Of a stretch of 64,000 bases of DNA, positions 157 through 37,874 are shown piece after piece. Numbering within the stretch: the first letter of the stretch is position 1; each line of letters begins with the position of its first letter. The notes beneath the pieces were generated by a model. It was not told the origin of the DNA. It worked only from the letters and a program-made list of their open reading frames with translations, and searched no databases. A program made the translations under genes and the position numbers. Source of the DNA: Saksenaea vasiformis B4078 (Eukaryota > Mucoromycota > Mucoromycetes > Mucorales > Saksenaeaceae); NCBI GenBank assembly GCA_000697055.1, contig JNDT01001846.1, positions 1-64,000 of the forward strand. Reading direction: 5' to 3'.

Positions 157-3100
157 ACACGACCATCCTCCCTATTGCCAGAAGAATTATAGACAAAGAG
201 GACAATTTTTTCCTCATGTCGTACAGATACCAGTGCGAAGGATGTAGAAAGACCTTTCTTGGTCACGATCGCGAAATATTGGACGGCCTGCCCTCATCGT
301 TATCTCAAGAATTTCCTGCCATCATGTCTAAACGCAGCGGTTTGTCTTTGCGTGTGATGGATATGATGCGAGCATGTTTTCATTCCGGAATGGGACCAGG
401 GCCATTTGTGCGCATGCTCAGCGAACATCATCATTTGCGACATGACCGTTTGGAACTGCAGTTTTTGACTGAAAGAGCTAGACGGACCCTGTATCCATCA
501 ATCCAGATGGTGAAGCAGAAAATGTTCTCATCTTTTTCCGATCCAAAAGGTTATAATGGATTTGTTCCCACTGTGAAATATATCACAAAGATGTACAATG
601 ACTTTGTCCAGTCCCGTATGTCCTCTCACCATCAGCATACGAGTTCTCTCCCCGCTACTATTCTTCATGTCGACCATAGTCATAAGGCAAGTGGCTCTAT
701 TGCTATGATTGATCATCATGCTAATCCACCGGTAAAGGTCACAACACGTATATGCAAGATCGAAGGGGCGAAGCTGTTTGAGGGCCTGTTCACTGCAACA
801 AATGAGATGGGAGAAATACGACTGCAATGTTTTGTCCCTTCAACGTCCATGGAATTCATTCGAGGACCAGTAAACAACATGATGCGCAGCCTAACTGCCC
901 TTGGTCACCCGGCGCCTGAAATTCTGTAGACTGACAACGTTGACGGCGATAAACTTTTCTTCGAGGAAGTTATACCGTCGCTTAGAGCAGACCTTGGCAA
1001 CCGCCAGTCGTTATGGGTCCGGAGGAGCATCTGGACCTCCCTCGTCTAAGGCTACCAAGCGATGTGGATGTAACTGTACACGAAACAAGCCAGATAAATA
1101 CTGCGATATCGGCGCTTTTAGACCTAATTGACAACGCTGATGACCAATCACCAACAGTAGTAGGATTAGATGCTGAATGGTCGTTTGACGCCCGGAGACC
1201 TGCCTGGAAACCCGTTGCTACTTTACAGGTAGCATATTGTCGACAAATCATCATATTACGACTTTCCCGGCTGCATACACTGCCGCACGCGCTTCTTGCC
1301 TTCCTGTCCAGAAGCGATGTAACAAAAGTTGGCAAGAACATTGGAGGCGACATCAGCCGGCTCCAAAGAAGCTTCCCCGAACCGCCAATCGAAGTAGTTG
1401 GCATGATAGAGTTGGGCGGGTACTGTAAAGATCGCGGCCTTGTGGTATCGGCAATGACAAGCTTGGCTGGAATTTGTGCGAGTGTCCTTCATCATCGTCT
1501 TCCAAAGGATGCAAATATCCGGCAAAGTGACTGGGGCCAACCAACTCTGAGTCAGGAACAAATCACGTACGCTGCATTAGATGCATGGGCGTCTTTGGAA
1601 ATATACCGGCAAGCATCTTCTCTGCCACCGACAAGTCAGACAGCCGTGCGCATTGAGCGAAACGAGCCATTGCTCATGGACGGATTATAGATGAACCTCA
1701 ACCACGGTAAGAAATATTAATGCTCTGCGATGGCAACACATGCTAATTAATGAACATAGAAAATTTAATGGAAGAAATCGTACGGATAATAGGGCGGTCG
1801 TAGAGGTTCAGCATGTCACTGTACCTAGTGCCACTACTCAGCTATGCGATGAACAACCTCTATCGAGTTTTGGTGTCCCACCTTTCCGCATTATGGCCAG
1901 GATACAAGCACTTCGATACCGGCGACAGGATATCTCAGAAATACGCAACGCCGAGAAACCTGTGATAGACGATGTAACTCTAGCTACTCAGACACAGGTG
2001 CATAACGTGACGAAGCTTTCGCGGGATAGCAGCAGTGTCGAGGACGAAGGAGAGTCTGACGAAGATGGTAGCGATATTGAAAATGAGCAGACTGCCGAAA
2101 ACTCTGCGGTAGATGAAGAAAGCAGGAGAAGAGGACACAGAATGCTGGATACCCTATACAGAAATGCAACCGCATCCAACAATCCAAGCACAGTAGCTCC
2201 GTTTGTAAGAACTCGCGTAATTCAGGATGTATGGCACGCTTTGAAGCGTATATCAGTACCAAAGAAACACGGTCTCCGCAGAAATTTCCAAAGAGCACTG
2301 ACAGATGCAGTCATGGTAATGGATCAAAGCGACGTTGCCAAAGTGAAGTGGGTGCTTGAAAGAAAAGGAGAGCAATTTGATCAAGGTTAGCAGTATTTTC
2401 CCTCACTCATAACAACAATCTTCTCTAATATACTTAATTTGCAGTTCAGAAGACAAGGAAACAATGGCTGCAAGCTAGGATTCGGCGCGTCATCCCACCA
2501 CCCCATTTAATGCTACGTCCTGTCTACGATGTGCTCATCACATACGGTCCTCTACTGTGCGCATCATCAAAGCAACCGCTATTCAATGATCAAGCCTGGA
2601 AGCAGGCCCGTAACTTCTTGGACTTGGTCGCAAAGGGGTATCTCAACGAACCGGAGGGACAGCAGCTCTATCATGAGCGCTATACAGATGCAGATGGCCT
2701 CATGGTCTATCGATGCTCAAGAGGAACCAACGTGTTGGAAGGCGGCATACATCAAAATCTAATCAGAAGGTTCGGTGCGTTCAATGCAAGCCCAAAGTTT
2801 GCCTGCAGCTTAATGCTTGAATACCGTACGCGACATAACCTTGATGTAAGTGGAGAGACTTTGCTGACCGCTTACGTTGCCTTACATTACTTCGGTAGGA
2901 ATTGAAAACCGCACGGGCAAACGATACCGCGATCACTACGATCTGTGGTTGAAAAACGAAATCCAAACACTGTACGTAAAGCTCGATGACGAGATACCAT
3001 CTCACTTGGATGGATGGCGAAATACATCCGCATATACGCCAACGAGCGAGCGGTTTGATATACCAGAAGTCTCCGATCAGCAGATTCACTTGTTGCAGAT

Positions 3101-3764
3101 GGAAAGATACACTGGCGCTATCGCTAGCAGCAGCGGACGATACCAATTTCTTATACAACGGCAAGATACCAAGTATGCAATCCTACCTATTCATACTGTA
3201 GAGGAAAGACTATTATTTTCCCGACTTGCAACCCAGTTTTGCAGCAATGTCGTTACTGCAGCGGTCAGATGGGAAAGTTTTGCTCAAACTTGGAATAGGA
3301 CATATGCCAATGGAGCAAATATACATTATAAATACCCTCAGATGATTCAGTCATACCATAGGCTGTGGGAGCAAGCCCAGGTCCAGCGCAGCTCGGCGAT
3401 ATTGACACAAGCACCCCGCAGCCGACTATCATACCTATCAGAACGGCAGCATGAGGGTGCCATTGACGCCCCTCATCCAATACCTCGACCGCAGTCTATA
3501 TCAACTACGTACCCACTCCAATCACCACCACCGCCACCACCACCGATTATACTGCCTGCCACAGCACTTCCTCCCACGTTACCCCAGTTAGCTGCAACCC
3601 CTACACCATCGACCTCGTATACCCCACCTACAACACTAGCAGGTAGAATTCCAATCCGAAGAATACCACAACCAATCCAGCGCAGGAAACGGTCGAGACA
3701 CTGCGCTCTTTGCGGTGAAGTAAGCTGTCCTGGAAGTCAAAATAGATCGCGATGCTTGAATTAA
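157..3764 (+). pseudogene. Decayed DUF6729-like / 3'-5' exonuclease repeat-family gene
   Basis: Remnant of a large multidomain gene of a type that is repetitive in fungal genomes. Coding similarity starts near 157 (possible acceptor AG at 155-156; the 5' part with the first CxxC pair is missing or upstream). The first block has a zinc-ribbon half (CEGC) and the MGPGPF and HHLRHDRLELQ stretches typical of the family. It is cut by an in-frame TAG at 927-929, inside the stretch between GHPAPEIL and TDNVDGDK, followed by a frame change near 990-1012. The exonuclease domain (1013-1690) keeps Exo I GLDAEW (1163-1180), Exo II VGKNIGGD and Exo III YAALD, so all four DEDDy acidic residues survive. It ends in a TAG at 1688-1690. 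Later blocks are 1760-2390, a good intron about 2387-2444, then a segment with RGTNVLEGGIHQN, another frame change near 2865-2898, and a tail ending in a CxxC...CPG...C zinc knuckle. Several breaks argue for a pseudogene. Family naming is from memory. Confidence 0.75.
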
Positions 3765-4843: not shown

Positions 4844-7747
4844 ATGGGTATGTGGAAAGTCGATAGATAATGCATCCATGGATGGATGTTTGTTTATGTG
4901 GAACGATGCATACTGATAACTTTAAATTTTTGACCACTGACACTTTCCCACCTGACTGAAATATAGTGGTAAGTTGCACATGGCGAACCCATTCTGCAAA
5001 TGAGATGCTAACGATTATGCCATGTTCTATAGAACTTTACCATCGAGGAGATCCGTGAATTGATGGTATGCAGGAACATACCTAACGCTTTGGTGTCTGT
5101 TATTGACTCTCGCCCGTAGGACAAAGTTACGAACGTCCGTAACATGTCCGTCATTGCCCACGTCGATCACGGCAAATCTACTTTGAGTGACTCTTTGGTC
5201 TCCAAGGCTGGTATTATCTCTGCCGGTCGTGCTGGTGAGACCCGTTTCATGGACACCCGTAAGGATGAACAGGAGCGTGGTATTACTATCAAGTCTACCG
5301 CTATCTCCATGTATTTCCAGCTGGAGAACCCCGATGATATTCAGGAAATCAAGGGCCAGAAGACCGATGGTAAGAGTTTGTAGCTTATGCTGAAAGCAAA
5401 AAAGTGTTGACGAAAATGTGGTGTATTATCTAGGTCACTCTTTCTTGATCAACTTGATCGATTCCCCCGGTCACGTTGACTTCTCTTCTGAAGTCACTGC
5501 TGCCCTCCGTGTTACTGATGGTGCTCTTGTCGTCGTCGACTGTATTGATGGTGTCTGTGTCCAGACCGAGACCGTCTTGCGTCAGGCTTTGACCGAGCGC
5601 ATCAAGCCTGTTGTTGTTATCAACAAGGTTGATCGTGCTCTTCTCGAATTGCAGTTGGACAAGGAAGAATTGTACAACGTAGGTCACATTTTTTTTGTTA
5701 TTTTTGCGTCTTGTGAGATACAGCCAATTTAAACCAGAATGTATAGGCTTTCGCTCGTACTGTTGAGTCCGTCAACGTTATCATCGCCACTTACCTCGAC
5801 GACGCTCTTGGTGATGTCCAGGTCTACCCCGAACGCGGTACCGTTGCTTTCGCCTCCGGTCTTCACGGTTGGGGTTTCACTCTCCGTCAGTTCGCTGTCC
5901 GTTACTCCAAGAAGTTCGGTGTCGACAAGGAGAAGATGATGCAGAAGTTGTGGGGTGAGAACTACTTCAATCCCAAGACCAAGAAGTGGACCACCAAGGC
6001 CACCGATGCCGATGGCAAGCCTCTTGAGCGTGCTTTCAACATGTTCGTCTTGGACCCTATCTACAGAATCTTCGACTCCGTCATGAACTTCAAGAAGGCT
6101 GAGATCCCCACTCTTTTGGAGAAGTTGGACATTCAGCTCAAGGGTGAAGAGAAGGATCTTGAAGGCAAGCAGCTCCTCAAGGTTGTTATGCGCAAGTTCT
6201 TGCCCGCTGGTGATGCTCTTTTGGAGATGATCTGTATCCACTTGCCCTCTCCCGTCACTGCCCAGAGATACCGTGTCGGCAACTTGTACGAAGGTCCCGT
6301 TGACGACGAGTGTGCCATTGGTATCCGTGACTGTGACCCCAACGGTCCTCTTATGCTTTACGTTTCCAAGATGGTGCCCACTTCCGACAAGGGTCGTTTC
6401 TACGCTTTCGGTCGTGTCTTCTCTGGTACCGTCCGTGCTGGTCTTAAGGTCCGTATCCAGGGTCCTAACTATGTTCCTGGCTCCAAGACCGACTTGTCCG
6501 TCAAGTCTATTCAGCGTACCGTTCTTATGATGGGCCGTAACGTCGAAGCCATCGATGACTGTCCCGCTGGTAATATCATTGGTCTTGTTGGTGTCGATCA
6601 GTTCTTGGTCAAGTCTGGTACCATCACCACCTCCGACGTTGCCCACAACATGAAGGTCATGAAGTTCTCTGTCTCTCCTGTCGTGCAGGTTGCCGTCGAA
6701 GTCAAGAACGCCAACGATCTTCCCAAGCTTGTTGAAGGTCTTAAGCGTCTTGCCAAGTCCGATCCTTGTGTCTTGACCTACACCTCTGACTCTGGTGAAC
6801 ACATTGTTGCTGGTGCTGGTGAACTTCACTTGGAAATTTGCTTGAAGGATCTTGAAGAAGACCACGCTCAGGTTCCCTTGAAGACTGGTGACCCCGTCGT
6901 CCAGTACCGTGAGACCGTCACTGCCGAGTCTTCCATGGACTGTCTTTCCAAGTCTCCCAACAAGCATAACCGTATCTACATGAGAGCCATGCCCTTGGCT
7001 GATGAGCTTGCCGATGATATCGAAGCTGGCCGCATTGGTCCCAAGGACGATTTCAAGGCCCGTGCCCGTACTCTTGCCGAGAAGTATGAATGGGATGTTA
7101 CTGAGGCCCGTAAGATCTGGTGTTTCGGTCCCGATGGCACTGGTCCCAACCTTATGGTTGATGTTACCAAGGCTGTTCAGTACCTTAACGAAATCAAGGA
7201 CTCCTGTGTTGCCGCCTTCCAGTGGGCTACCAAGGAAGGTCCCGTTGCTGAGGAGAACTTGCGTGGTTGTCGCTTCAACATTTTGGATGTGACTCTTCAC
7301 GCTGATGCTATCCACAGAGGTGGTGGACAGATCATCCCCACTTGCCGTCGTGTCGTCTATGCTTCCGTGTTGACTGCCACCCCCGGTATCCAGGAACCCG
7401 TCTACTTGGTCGAAATCCAGTGCCCTGAAAGTGTCATTGGTGGTATCTATGGTGTTCTTAACAGACGTCGTGGTATGGTCTTCGCTGAAGAACAGAAGCC
7501 CGGTACCCCCATGATGAACGTCAAGGCTTACTTGCCCGTCAACGAATCTTTCGGTTTCACTGCCGATCTTCGTGCCGCCACTGGTGGTCAGGCCTTCCCT
7601 CAGGCCGTGTTCGATCACTGGCAGATCATGACTGGTAACCCCTTGGAGGCTGGTAACAAGGTCTACGACATCATCCGTGCTGTCCGTAAGAGAAAGGGTC
7701 TCGTTGAGGATATTCCTGGCCTTGACAAGTACTATGACAAGTTGTAA
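4844..7747 (+). CDS. EFT: Translation elongation factor 2 (eEF2)
   Basis: GTPase that moves the ribosome along mRNA in the cytosol. Six exons in my model: 4844-4847, 4967-4968, 5033-5065, 5120-5369, 5434-5678, 5747-7747, giving 2535 nt and 844 aa, the normal fungal length. The start gives MVNF, the universal EF-2 N-terminus, but only if a 2-nt exon (TG, 4967-4968) joins exon 1 (ATGG) to exon 3. Motifs seen: P-loop AHVDHGKST, switch II DSPGH, NKVD, and near the C-terminus the diphthamide loop DAIHRGGGQ with the target His codon at 7313-7315. Introns have GTATGT/GTAAGT donors and GCTAACG/CCTAACG branch-like sites. Codon use is strongly biased to C/T-ending codons, as expected for a very highly expressed gene; this bias also opens a 727-codon antisense frame that I reject. 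Identity is certain; only the 5' splicing needs RNA confirmation. Confidence 0.97.
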
Positions 7748-7795
7748 ATTCCATCCAATTCTGTACAGTACATGTGAATCCAAACAATGGATTGT

Positions 7796-7801
7796 AATAA
7801 A
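7796..7801 (+). terminator. Poly(A) signal of EF-2
   Basis: AATAAA 49 bases after the EF-2 stop, followed by an AT-rich stretch. It fits a canonical polyadenylation signal. Confidence 0.55.
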
Positions 7802-8562
7802 TTTCTTATTTAAAAAAAAAAAGGACGGTTCCTGGTGAAAGTGAGCTTTATTATAAAGAGACTGAGAGTGTGTGTGTGTTTGTATATGTGTGGAATACAG
7901 TATGATTATCAATGGGGAAGTGTCTTAATATAAGAAAGGTGGAACCAAACTGTCATGTTTCCATAAAAGCAATTGCAGGGTCTCAACTTGTGACCTGCAT
8001 TATTTGAATTGTTTCTAGGAATACTTAACACGTGAAGTAAGAAAAGAATACAAAAATAAAAACAAAAATAAAGAAAAAAGAACAAACTACACATCCATTT
8101 ATTCTAATACGTTGAGATCTTCCATAGACACGAGATGTTTGATTCATGAACATCCAGGTCAGCAGAGATGTCATTTACAAAAAAGGAGGTTTATGTCAAC
8201 TGTATACTGAAACCAGAAATAAAGGACTTTTCATTGTGAAACGTTTAGTAGACATGTTGTGACGAGTTGATTCAAATCAGTTAACGAAAATGAAGGTACA
8301 AGGTTTTTTGTTGGATAAATAAGACATATTTACTCTCTTTTTTCATTTTGAAACATTCAAAATGATTTGTGTTGTCTTTTCCAGTGACCAATTCAGCAAC
8401 GTTTACAAGTCACAACCCCTGGTACGTGGTACCCAATCGCAAGACACGGTGGCAACCGGAGCAAGAAAAAATTTTTAAGAAAAAAAAAACTTGGGTATAA
8501 AGGCTAAACACCTGGCTGCCTATCGTTTTTCCTTCCCTTTTCTTTAACCCCACTCCTTCGAA
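7802..8562. other. Intergenic with ADP/ATP carrier promoter
   Basis: No coding region recognised. A short TG repeat lies at about 7868-7880. The right half carries core promoter elements of the carrier gene: CCAAT at 8433-8437, TATAAAG at 8496-8502 and a pyrimidine-rich initiator region at about 8520-8555. Confidence 0.5.
8433..8502 (+). promoter_or_regulatory. CCAAT and TATA elements of the ADP/ATP carrier gene
   Basis: CCAAT at 8433-8437 and TATAAAG at 8496-8502 precede the ATG at 8563. The TATA box is about 60 bases from the start, leaving a short CT-rich 5' UTR. This arrangement suits a strongly expressed gene. Not tested by transcript data. Confidence 0.5.
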
Positions 8563-9644
8563 ATGTCCACCGATACGACCAAGTTCCTCCAAGATTTCTT
8601 GATGGGCGGTGTTTCCGCTGCCGTCTCCAAGACCGCTGCTGCCCCCATTGAGCGTATCAAGCTCTTGATCCAGAACCAGGACGAGATGATCAAGCAGGGT
8701 CGTCTTGCTTCCCCCTACAAGGGTATTGGCGACTGCTTCGCCCGTACTTTGAAGGATGAGGGTGCCATCTCCTTCTGGAGAGGTAACACTGCCAACGTCA
8801 TCCGTTACTTCCCCACCCAGGCTTTGAACTTCGCCTTCAAGGACAAGTTCAAGCGTATGTTCAACAAGGACAAGAAGAAGGATGGCTACTGGGTCTGGTT
8901 CGCCGGTAAGTTCTATATTTTATATGATGTCAAATTTCGATGACTAAATGGAACCCCCTGTCGTTTTTTTTTTTTTTTGTTCAATAGGTAACTTGGCCTC
9001 TGGTGGTTTCGCTGGTGCCTCTTCCCTGTTCTTCGTCTACTCCCTTGACTACGCCCGTACCCGTCTTGCCAACGACGCCAAGTCCGCCAAGAAGGGTGGT
9101 GAGCGCCAGTTCAACGGTCTTCTCGATGTCTACCGCAAGACCCTTGCCTCCGACGGTATTGCCGGTTTGTACCGTGGTTTCAACATCTCCTGTGTTGGTA
9201 TCATCGTCTACCGTGGTTTGTACTTCGGTATGTACGATTCCATCAAGCCCATCATGCCTGAGAACCTCCAGAAGAGCTTCTTGGCTTCCTTCTTGCTTGG
9301 CTGGGCTGTTACCACTGGTGCTGGTCTTGGTAAGTTTTATTTTTATTTTTTTATATATGGATTTGGGTGTGTGATAATGAGGACCTGGATTGTAACGCCA
9401 CGCTTTTTTTTTTTTTTTAGCTTCCTACCCCATCGACACTGTCCGTCGTAGAATGATGATGACCTCTGGTGCCGCCGTCAAGTACGACTCTTCCCTCCAC
9501 GCCTTCAAGGAGATCGTCGCTAAGGAAGGTGCCAAGTCTCTCTTCAAGGGTGCTGGTGCTAACATCCTCCGTGCCATCGCTGGTGCTGGTGTCTTGTCTG
9601 GCTACGATCAGCTCCAGATGATCTTGTTCGGCAGAAAGTACTAA
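8563..9644 (+). CDS. AAC: Mitochondrial ADP/ATP carrier
   Basis: Exchanges cytosolic ADP for matrix ATP across the inner mitochondrial membrane. Three exons: 8563-8905, 8988-9329, 9421-9644 (909 nt, 302 aa, the usual family length). Two introns, both phase 1, have T-rich tracts before the acceptor. Three mitochondrial-carrier repeats are visible: the first has [10 protein letters not shown], the second [12 protein letters not shown], the third [12 protein letters not shown], which contains the RRRMMM signature diagnostic of nucleotide-specific ADP/ATP carriers. Each repeat has the Px[D/E]xx[K/R] motif at the end of its odd helix. Codon bias matches EF-2, so the gene is highly expressed. No presequence is expected. 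Its 3' end converges on ISA2. Confidence 0.97.
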
Positions 9645-35665: not shown

Positions 35666-37874
35666 ATGGAGGCAAAGCAATCGGATAGCAATTGGGGTAG
35701 GTCTGGTTCTATCATCTGCGTTTACGGTACACAGGATCTGTCCTATGAAGTAAAGGACAAAGGACGCTTGGCATTCGCATAATTGGTGCAAGATCTCTGT
35801 CTATCTACCTATCATGTGTCTCCAAATTGATTTGTTCTCTTGTCTGCCTGACCGGCTTTAGGGAAAGCCGTCATTTGCGGAACTACAGCATGGGATGTCA
35901 TCAACAAAAAGCATAAACAGGCGCCGGACATGGAACAGTAAGAAGATGACATGCGTAAAAACCAATTTGATGACCATTAAATTCCACTTAGGCATATACT
36001 CTTAGGGCCTCATCTCATTCGAGAACTGGTTGATGTCAGGTGCGTGTTACAGCAGCCATACGTAACGTGGCCCTGACTTAGGGGGTTGATTAGGGTAAAG
36101 CAAGTGATCACAGGGCCAAATGCATGCCATTCGGTTATCATTAGTGATGAAGGTGAAGCGTGGGTGTTCGGTCGAAACGAACGTGGTCAACTAGGCATTG
36201 GACACAAGAATTGTCAAGATTATCCCATAAAGATCAACAGCGTACCAGAAATCAACAGCAAATATGGTGGGACGAAAATTGTCCATGCTGCTGCTGGTAG
36301 AAACCACACGCTGCTGGTGACAGGTAAATGCTTATTGGGACAAGAATAAAAGTTCATTCTATTCCTTGGTAGAACGAGGTGAAGTGCTTGCTGCAGGAGA
36401 CAATAAGCTAGGCCAACTTGGCATCTCGACCCTGAATGATCATGTCCTTTTTGAGACGGTCACAAGTCTCAGCAAGGAAAAGATTGTAGAAGCTGCCTGC
36501 GGTGCAGACTTCTCTATCGTGCGTAGTGGTAAGTTATTGGGGGAAGATGGACCTGCTACTTTACTGATATGTATTTAAAGACCAGGGGAAACTGTTTGCG
36601 TTTGGATCCCAAGAGTTTGGACAGGTAGAGCTTCCCATCTGATAAATCAAAAAACTGTGTTTTGATGATGACGGTGTTTAGCTTGGTAATGGCGCAGATG
36701 GGCAGTACATCAAGGGGTCGGGCAAAATGATCACCCAACCTCAACCTTATCCATGTAGGTTGATCGTGCTGTATTTGGGATAATGTAGATAATTGACAAC
36801 TCTGTAGTACCTGTGAAGGCTTTGGCGAAAAGAAATATTACTTCCATTGCATGCGGCACGAATCATTCTCTTGCTTTGGACGACGAAGGTTATGTTTACT
36901 CCTGGGGATTTGGAGGTTATGGTCGTCTAGGGCATGGCGAGCAGAAGGATTTGCTTGTTCCACGTGTGATATCGCATTTTGCTGGCCCAGCAGAGATCAC
37001 CAGAGCATCCGCCATCGCTTGTGGCTCAACCTGCTCCATGGCGCTCGATGGTAGCCGACAGCTGCTTCTGTGGGGAAAATGGAAGACGACCGGCGATGGT
37101 AGTGCTGGTCAGGCTTGGATGGTATGTTGAGACGAGCTTTCGCGAACGTAGCTCACCTCTGTATGTATATTGCAGACACCACGCTACCTTTACGACATCA
37201 ATGGTTGGGAGCTTTCCGCAATTTCCGCAGGCAACAAGAGTCTTTTTGCTTTGACACAGACTGAACCAACGACGATCGCCTGGGGCCAGGTGCAAAATGG
37301 TGAGCTTGGCTTTGGTGAAGACTCGGCAGTGAAAACAGCCACAAAACCTCAACGTGTTGAACCTTTGGAAGGAATTGAAACGATCAGGTAAAGGCACAGA
37401 TATTGCTCAGCTGACGCCACTTTTTATACCGAGACTATGTATAGTGTTTCGGCTGGTATGGGTCACACGCTATTCATCGTCAAACCTGGTAATGAACTTG
37501 TACAGGATCTTCCAAAATGGCCAATCCTTCCTGAGGTAAGTTTAGCATAAATAGCACCGCTATAATTACGCTCTTTATTCCTGTAGGGTGACGATTCCTG
37601 CGTGAAATGCCATAAGGAAGATAACGAAGACCAGCTTCTTTTATGTGATAAGTGTGATGCGTCTATTCACACCTACTGCGCAATTCCGCCTCTGAAGGAA
37701 ATTCCAAGCGGTGATTGGTACTGTGACACATGTCATCCTGTCGATAAACCCGAGGAGACCCCAAAGAAACGTTCCAAAAAAGCGATTGCATCATCTGGTG
37801 AGTGTACCATTTTCGTGATAGATATATTGCTAATGATCAATATCCAAGCTGCTAAACGAAGTCGGACGGAATAA
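35666..37874 (+). CDS. RCC2-like beta-propeller fused to a PHD finger
   Basis: Twelve exons: 35666-35696, 35862-35937, 35992-36039, 36094-36323, 36373-36528, 36581-36624, 36682-36754, 36808-37121, 37176-37387, 37445-37535, 37587-37797, 37849-37874 (1512 nt, 503 aa). The N-terminal about 400 residues are an RCC1-type propeller closest to RCC2/TD-60: CGTTAWDVI, GPHLIRELVDV, WVFGRNERGQLG, ACGTNHSLALD, YSWGFGGYGRLGHGEQKD. RCC2 works in mitosis and Rac1/Arf6 regulation. Exon 11 adds a complete C4HC3 PHD finger (CVKC, CDKC, H..C, C..C, with LLLCDKC and DWYCDTC), a histone-tail reader. The tail KKRSKKA...AKRSR is a likely nuclear signal. Intron 10 splits propeller and PHD in phase 0. Intron 1 (165 nt) and the 31-nt first exon are the least certain. 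Confidence 0.88.

Follow-up and report, generated by a model that had tools for sequence, protein, structure and literature searches.

The EF-2 gene lies on the forward strand near the start of the window, the 64,000-nt stretch of DNA that was analysed. EF-2 (translation elongation factor 2) is an essential and normally very abundant protein. At the 5' end of the gene the sequence reads ATGG/GTATGT, TATAG/TG/GTAAGT and TATAG/AACTTT, where the slashes mark predicted exon boundaries. The ATG is at 4844-4846, the G at 4847, GTATGT at 4848-4853, an AG at 4965-4966, TG at 4967-4968 and GTAAGT at 4969-4974. A second acceptor AG (5031-5032) is followed by AAC TTT ACC from 5033, in an exon that ends at 5065. 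The letters and coordinates that the initial annotation gave for ATGG, TG and AAC were correct. The TG is very probably an exon of only two nucleotides, which supply the rest of EF-2 codon 2; this prediction from sequence would place it among the smallest exons known. With the TG kept, the exons listed in Table 1 join into 2535 nt with a single, terminal stop and encode an uninterrupted protein of 844 amino acids with the N-terminus MVNF (ATG GTG AAC TTT), as had been claimed for TG inclusion. Codon 2 (GTG, Val) is assembled from the G at 4847 and the TG.

Table 1. Exons and predicted introns of the EF-2 gene in the window.
Feature	Positions	Strand	Evidence
Exon 1, coding part ATGG (ATG and first base of codon 2)	4844..4847	+	Sequence; ATGG then GTA also in C32 and C437
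Predicted intron 1, 119 nt, donor GTATGT, acceptor ATATAG	4848..4966	+	Free of AG over the 98 nt preceding the terminal AG
Predicted 2-nt exon TG, completing codon 2	4967..4968	+	3/3 copies with a readable 5' end; self-trained gene finder (window in training set)
Predicted intron 2, 64 nt, donor GTAAGT, acceptor TATAG	4969..5032	+	CTAAC branch-like motif, A 21 nt before intron end
Exon 3, encodes 11 residues	5033..5065	+	Sequence, joined frame, PDB comparison
Predicted intron 3, 54 nt, GTATGC..GTAG	5066..5119	+	Joined frame, site scoring
Exon 4	5120..5369	+	ORF and joined frame
Predicted intron 4, 64 nt	5370..5433	+	Joined frame, site scoring
Exon 5	5434..5678	+	ORF and joined frame
Predicted intron 5, 68 nt	5679..5746	+	Joined frame, site scoring
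Exon 6, including stop codon	5747..7747	+	ORF, joined frame, paralogue search

Several other predicted features surround the gene. Directly downstream on the same strand is a gene with three predicted exons (8563-9644), resembling one for a mitochondrial ADP/ATP carrier. Upstream, the gene at 1013-3723 has a predicted 16-nt internal exon (1691-1706). An antisense open frame of 731 codons (5729-7924, minus strand) lies over the EF-2 exon and probably reflects codon bias. It misled the gene finder into an artefact gene antisense to EF-2, and the 8-nt exon predicted for this gene (8111-8118, minus strand) was rejected.

The predicted N-terminus agrees with that of known EF-2 proteins. Yeast EF-2 and 7old were the top PDB matches, ahead of animal EF-2; this ranking, together with the short introns, makes the genome a likely fungal one. 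The first ten residues are identical to the start of the EF-2 chain in PDB 7old, which we take to be Chaetomium EF-2, and yeast EF-2 (PDB 1n0u) begins MVAFTVDQMR. The N-terminal peptide expected from the reading that contains TG is (M)VNFTIEEIR.

The large EF-2 exon was used as a query against the organism's own 38.7-Mb assembly. Seventeen matches were found, four of which are EF-2 itself: the window copy (contig C402), C539, C437, and C32. C32 and C539 are each truncated by a contig end, and the 1001 nt over which they overlap contain 1 mismatch; they are thus probably one gene cut by the contig ends. The 5' end is readable in C402, C32, and C437, and all three possess the same layout, ATGG followed by GTAWGT or GTAACG, then AG/TG/GTAAGT, and then AG/AACTTTAC. 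The TG is flanked as TATAG/TG/GTAAGT in C402, AATAG/TG/GTAAGT in C32, and GCTAG/TG/GTAAGT in C437. It has the sequence features of an ultra-short constitutive microexon, with AG directly before it and GT directly after it in every copy, a need for it in the reading frame and in the conserved N-terminal motif, and conservation in 3/3 paralogues with a readable 5' end. The island that the initial annotation suggested looking for, AG-TG-GTAAGT, is thus conserved among paralogues of one genome rather than in other species. The introns on either side vary in length, with 119, 146, and 132 nt for intron 1 and 64, 62, and 55 nt for intron 2 (C402, C32, and C437, respectively). The intron 2 donor GTAAGT, as GTG/GTAAGT, is identical in 3/3 copies, whereas for introns 1, 3, 4, and 5 the donor hexamer varies among the copies. 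When the TG is omitted, a stop is reached at codon 10 (C402), 6 (C32), or 7 (C437), as expected from the earlier statement that skipping disrupts the frame. One of the skip products is MELYDR followed by a stop.

C402 and C32 are a close pair, identical at 554/556 residues and 236/269 fourfold sites. C402 and C437 are identical at 724/844 residues and 174/345 fourfold sites, where composition predicts about 36%. Because their fourfold sites agree at only 174/345, C437 is an old copy and the TG layout is old as well. The three paralogues have common ancestry and do not count as three independent cases. Codon 2 is GTG in each of them, and GTG makes up 6/82, 4/58, and 16/78 of the valine codons; its presence at codon 2 despite low use fits a demand for G before the intron 2 donor. 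A wider search for related loci gave 2 matches in genome contigs, both archaeal EF-2, and none in viral contigs.

The TG island is conserved within introns that otherwise match poorly. Across the three intervals of 185-210 nt, the longest shared word is TAGTGGTAAGT (11 nt), while no shared word exceeded 8 nt in 2000 sets of dinucleotide shuffles. When the 185-nt C402 interval was itself shuffled by dinucleotides, AGTGGTAAGT appeared in 0/5000 shuffles, and AGTGGTAWGT at least 40 nt from both interval ends in 1/5000. The assembly contains 19 occurrences of TAGTGGTAAGT and 34 of the reversed control word, which shows no enrichment of the word itself. Three of the 19 are at the equivalent point of the three EF-2 copies. 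The second TAGTGGTAAGT of the window (36524-36534) is an ordinary exon end (...CGTAGTG/GTAAGT) in a predicted gene at 35666-37874 and not a microexon.

Other ways of joining the 5' end were enumerated. Among readings that begin at the ATGG start codon and place an internal exon no longer than 40 nt between consecutive introns, ATGG/TG/AAC was the sole in-frame one with two introns in C402 (1/1) and C437 (1/1), and the best-scoring of 8 in C32. Single-intron alternatives, with any ATG no farther upstream of ATGG than 300 nt accepted as the start, numbered 9 (C402), 12 (C32), and 8 (C437). The best of these in C402 has a very weak donor with a score of only 1.66, under the 5th percentile (2.32). 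In the other copies the strongest donors go with an ATG lying 248 nt before ATGG (C32) and with the ATG at 3500 (C437). The single-intron alternatives were rejected because their sites are non-homologous between copies.

A purpose-written, self-trained gene finder was also applied. The full model was trained on 264 kb including the window and gave 70 genes and 260 introns. It returned the exact EF-2 structure with the 2-nt exon, unprompted, although the window was in its training set. A leave-out model, trained on 200 kb of C441 alone (49 genes, 154 introns), gave this structure in 0/3 copies. It kept the TG in C402 with the start moved to the ATG at 4878, started C32 at Met13, and started C437 at the ATG at 3500, reading straight into GTG. 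Forbidding the donor beside the TG cost this model 3.25 (C402), 0 (C32), and 1.56 (C437) log units. The leave-out model performed worse, so the ab initio score does not decide the matter on its own. The case for the 2-nt exon comes from the frame, the N-terminus known for EF-2, and the paralogues. Automatic gene models may place the EF-2 start wrongly, at Met13 or another incorrect ATG, which is what the leave-out finder did here.

Very small exons were few in both models. Internal exons of at most 6 nt numbered 1/198 in the full model, this being the EF-2 TG exon, and 1/114 in the leave-out model, this being a 5-nt exon absent from the full model. The latter (L043:8072-8076, minus strand; C441:168072-168076) is GAATG between TCAG and GTAAGA and is an unsupported candidate for another tiny exon. 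A coding first exon of at most 6 nt was predicted in 7/62 multi-exon genes of the full sample. At L041:1985-1999 (C441:141985-141999), a 15-nt second exon was predicted after an ATG-only first exon, in a gene resembling that of ribosomal protein eL20/L18a.

A real local rival start is present at the ATG at 3500 in C437. It can be proposed that EF-2 starts elsewhere and that the TG is no separate exon, with C437 reading 21 codons from this ATG into GTG/GTAAGT, or with EF-2 starting at Met13 (window 5063). The leave-out gene finder did pick the ATG at 3500 in C437 and Met13 in C32, and in C437 the frame upstream of GTG is open back to that ATG. However, the ATG at 3500 sits behind 4 other ATGs, and the frame upstream of GTG is closed by a TGA two codons away in C402 and one codon away in C32. 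The weak single-intron donor in C402 also argues against another start, and a start at Met13 would remove residues that are found in yeast EF-2 and 7old. A start elsewhere is thus highly improbable. The initial annotation had also drawn a comparison with fungal stwintrons. A nested reading of the [D1,2] type is possible in form: 4848-4966 would interrupt, at G^T, the donor of an external intron placed right after ATG (ATG/GTGGTA), leaving the mRNA junction ATGAACTTT and the product ATG AAC TTT, or MNFT, without Val2. It is in frame and available in 3/3 copies, with donor-split readings numbering 2 (C402), 3 (C32), and 2 (C437), and almost all known stwintrons are of this type (PMC12403724). 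The geometry gives no independent support, because codon 2 is GTG and begins with GT. The external donor GTGGTA has a score of 0.39 (1st percentile), whereas GTG/GTAAGT three bases on reaches 6.97 (90th), and 0/154 predicted introns start with GTGG, so that it does not appear to be a usable donor. Val2, which is present in yeast EF-2 and 7old, would be lost. Hence there is very little chance that this is the structure, and the two-nucleotide exon is preferred.

The order in which the two introns flanking this exon are removed can be suggested from their sites. Summed donor and acceptor/branch scores were expressed as percentiles of 154 introns that are themselves predicted and not sequenced (Table 2).

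Table 2. Percentiles of summed site scores for the pairings around the TG exon.
Pairing	C402	C32	C437
Intron 2	99	94	100
Intron 1	55	5	1
Skip pairing (intron 1 donor with intron 2 acceptor)	71	49	47
Intron 2, length counted	97	91	100
Intron 1, length counted	3	1	0
Skip pairing, length counted	5	3	3

Intron 1 is long for the genome, with 7/154 predicted introns of at least 119 nt, and in C402 it is not weak once length is ignored. The GTAAGT donor is found in about 15% of the 154 introns. Intron 2 possesses a branch-like motif, CTAAC, CTAAT, and CTAAC, with its A 21, 18, and 14 nt before the intron end (C402, C32, and C437). In intron 1, C402 contains several YTRAY motifs and C32 a single one 65 nt away, and C437 lacks the motif. 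Intron 1 ends in a tail free of AG, of 98 (C402), 70 (C32), and about 124 nt (C437). Tails as long were reached by 0, 67, and 18 of 2000 composition shuffles and by 21, 19, and 2000 of 2000 dinucleotide shuffles, the last being uninformative because intron 1 of C437 has no AG to place. The tail is not exceptional under every control. The seven predicted introns of at least 100 nt in the sample, some of them possibly false predictions, have AG-free tails of 2 to 33 nt.

These site strengths point to removal of the downstream intron first in 3/3 copies. If the 2-nt exon is accepted, intron 2 is likely to leave first, given its strong sites, the weaker sites of intron 1, and published microexons of this build. 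The exon and this order taken jointly remain fairly probable. The initial annotation proposed the opposite, in which intron 1 leaves before intron 2 and its removal restores ATGGTG ahead of the GTAAGT donor. The order of transcription and the middling intron 1 sites in C402 are in its favour, as is the requirement that the internal intron of a stwintron be removed first. On the other side, intron 2 outscores intron 1 in every copy. While intron 2 is present, the skip pairing also outscores intron 1 in each copy, so that skipping of the TG would be at least as favourable as removal of intron 1. Removal of intron 1 first is therefore rather unlikely, though it has some chance of being correct.

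With intron 2 leaving first, splicing would probably proceed as follows. U1 bound to GTG/GTAAGT would cover the acceptor AG of intron 1, and for this reason the two introns could presumably not both be committed at once. The strong and short intron 2 would be defined and excised first, joining the TG to exon 3 (TGAACTTT...). Its removal would take away the acceptor that the intron 1 donor could use to skip the TG, and skipping would then be impossible. Intron 1 would be removed last, using a branch point farther upstream and the first AG encountered after it, and the long AG-free tail would help.

Comparable exons have been described. In Fusarium, a 1-nt exon of CYP621A was confirmed by reads, in a P450 gene described as rarely expressed, and the same paper lists Arabidopsis, Drosophila, and humans as having exons of 2-5 bp (PMC12940212). 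The fungal CYP621A exon and the EF-2 exon of this likely fungus each consist of one or two bases within a codon that belongs to a conserved motif, with AG and GT directly flanking, and both were found through frame and conservation, with an overlong 'intron' as a clue. Unlike the read-supported 1-nt exon of the P450 gene, the EF-2 exon is 2 nt long, lies beside the start codon, occurs in three paralogues, and is predicted from the sequence. Plant APC11 and VPS55 possess 1-nt exons (PMC4674806, PMC8831610), which also restore the frame and are conserved in copies. VPS55 likewise conserves a GTRAGT donor after the tiny exon, and in the APC11/VPS55 group an annotation error shortens the N-terminus. 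These plant exons are constitutive, as the EF-2 exon is predicted to be. They differ in being 1 nt long, from plants, and tested in protoplasts or by RT-PCR.

Removal of the downstream intron first is also known. Microexons spliced in this order are shorter and have weaker upstream 3' sites (PMC10250204), in fly microexons the AG exclusion zone is long and the downstream branch sequence strong (PMC8797185), and a potato 9-nt exon, cited in the paper on the Arabidopsis 1-nt exon, has its second intron removed first (PMC4674806). The EF-2 exon resembles the downstream-first neural microexons (PMC10250204, PMC8797185) in its weak upstream 3' site, predicted steric conflict over the tiny exon, long AG-free zone, and strong downstream branch motif. 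The neural microexons differ in being from animals, mostly alternative, up to 51 nt long, and driven by SRRM4/eMIC. With fungal [D1,2] stwintrons the EF-2 gene shares two abutting introns that give the frame only if removed separately, and one-step missplicing that shifts the frame (PMC12403724). Stwintrons have no exon letters between the introns, whereas the preferred EF-2 reading keeps TG in the mRNA. No description of a 2-nt exon in a fungal EF-2 gene was found in the open PMC subset.

Since 1-nt exons are already known in plants and Fusarium, the EF-2 TG exon extends a known kind and is not a new kind. What is notable is its location at codon 2, its conservation in three diverged copies, and its design of strong and weak sites. 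A more speculative and rather doubtful idea is that the 2-nt exon serves as a gate on splice order. Removal of intron 2 first would lock in Val2, the reverse order would open the [D1,2] donor three bases away and give EF-2 without Val2, and skipping would give a nonsense mRNA. Stwintrons and microexons would then be linked by a donor slide of 3 nt, which could tune the output of an essential translation factor. The three diverged copies with one shared island provide a clean natural test of splicing order. If the prediction is true, tiny exons can be spliced routinely in this likely fungus with short introns.
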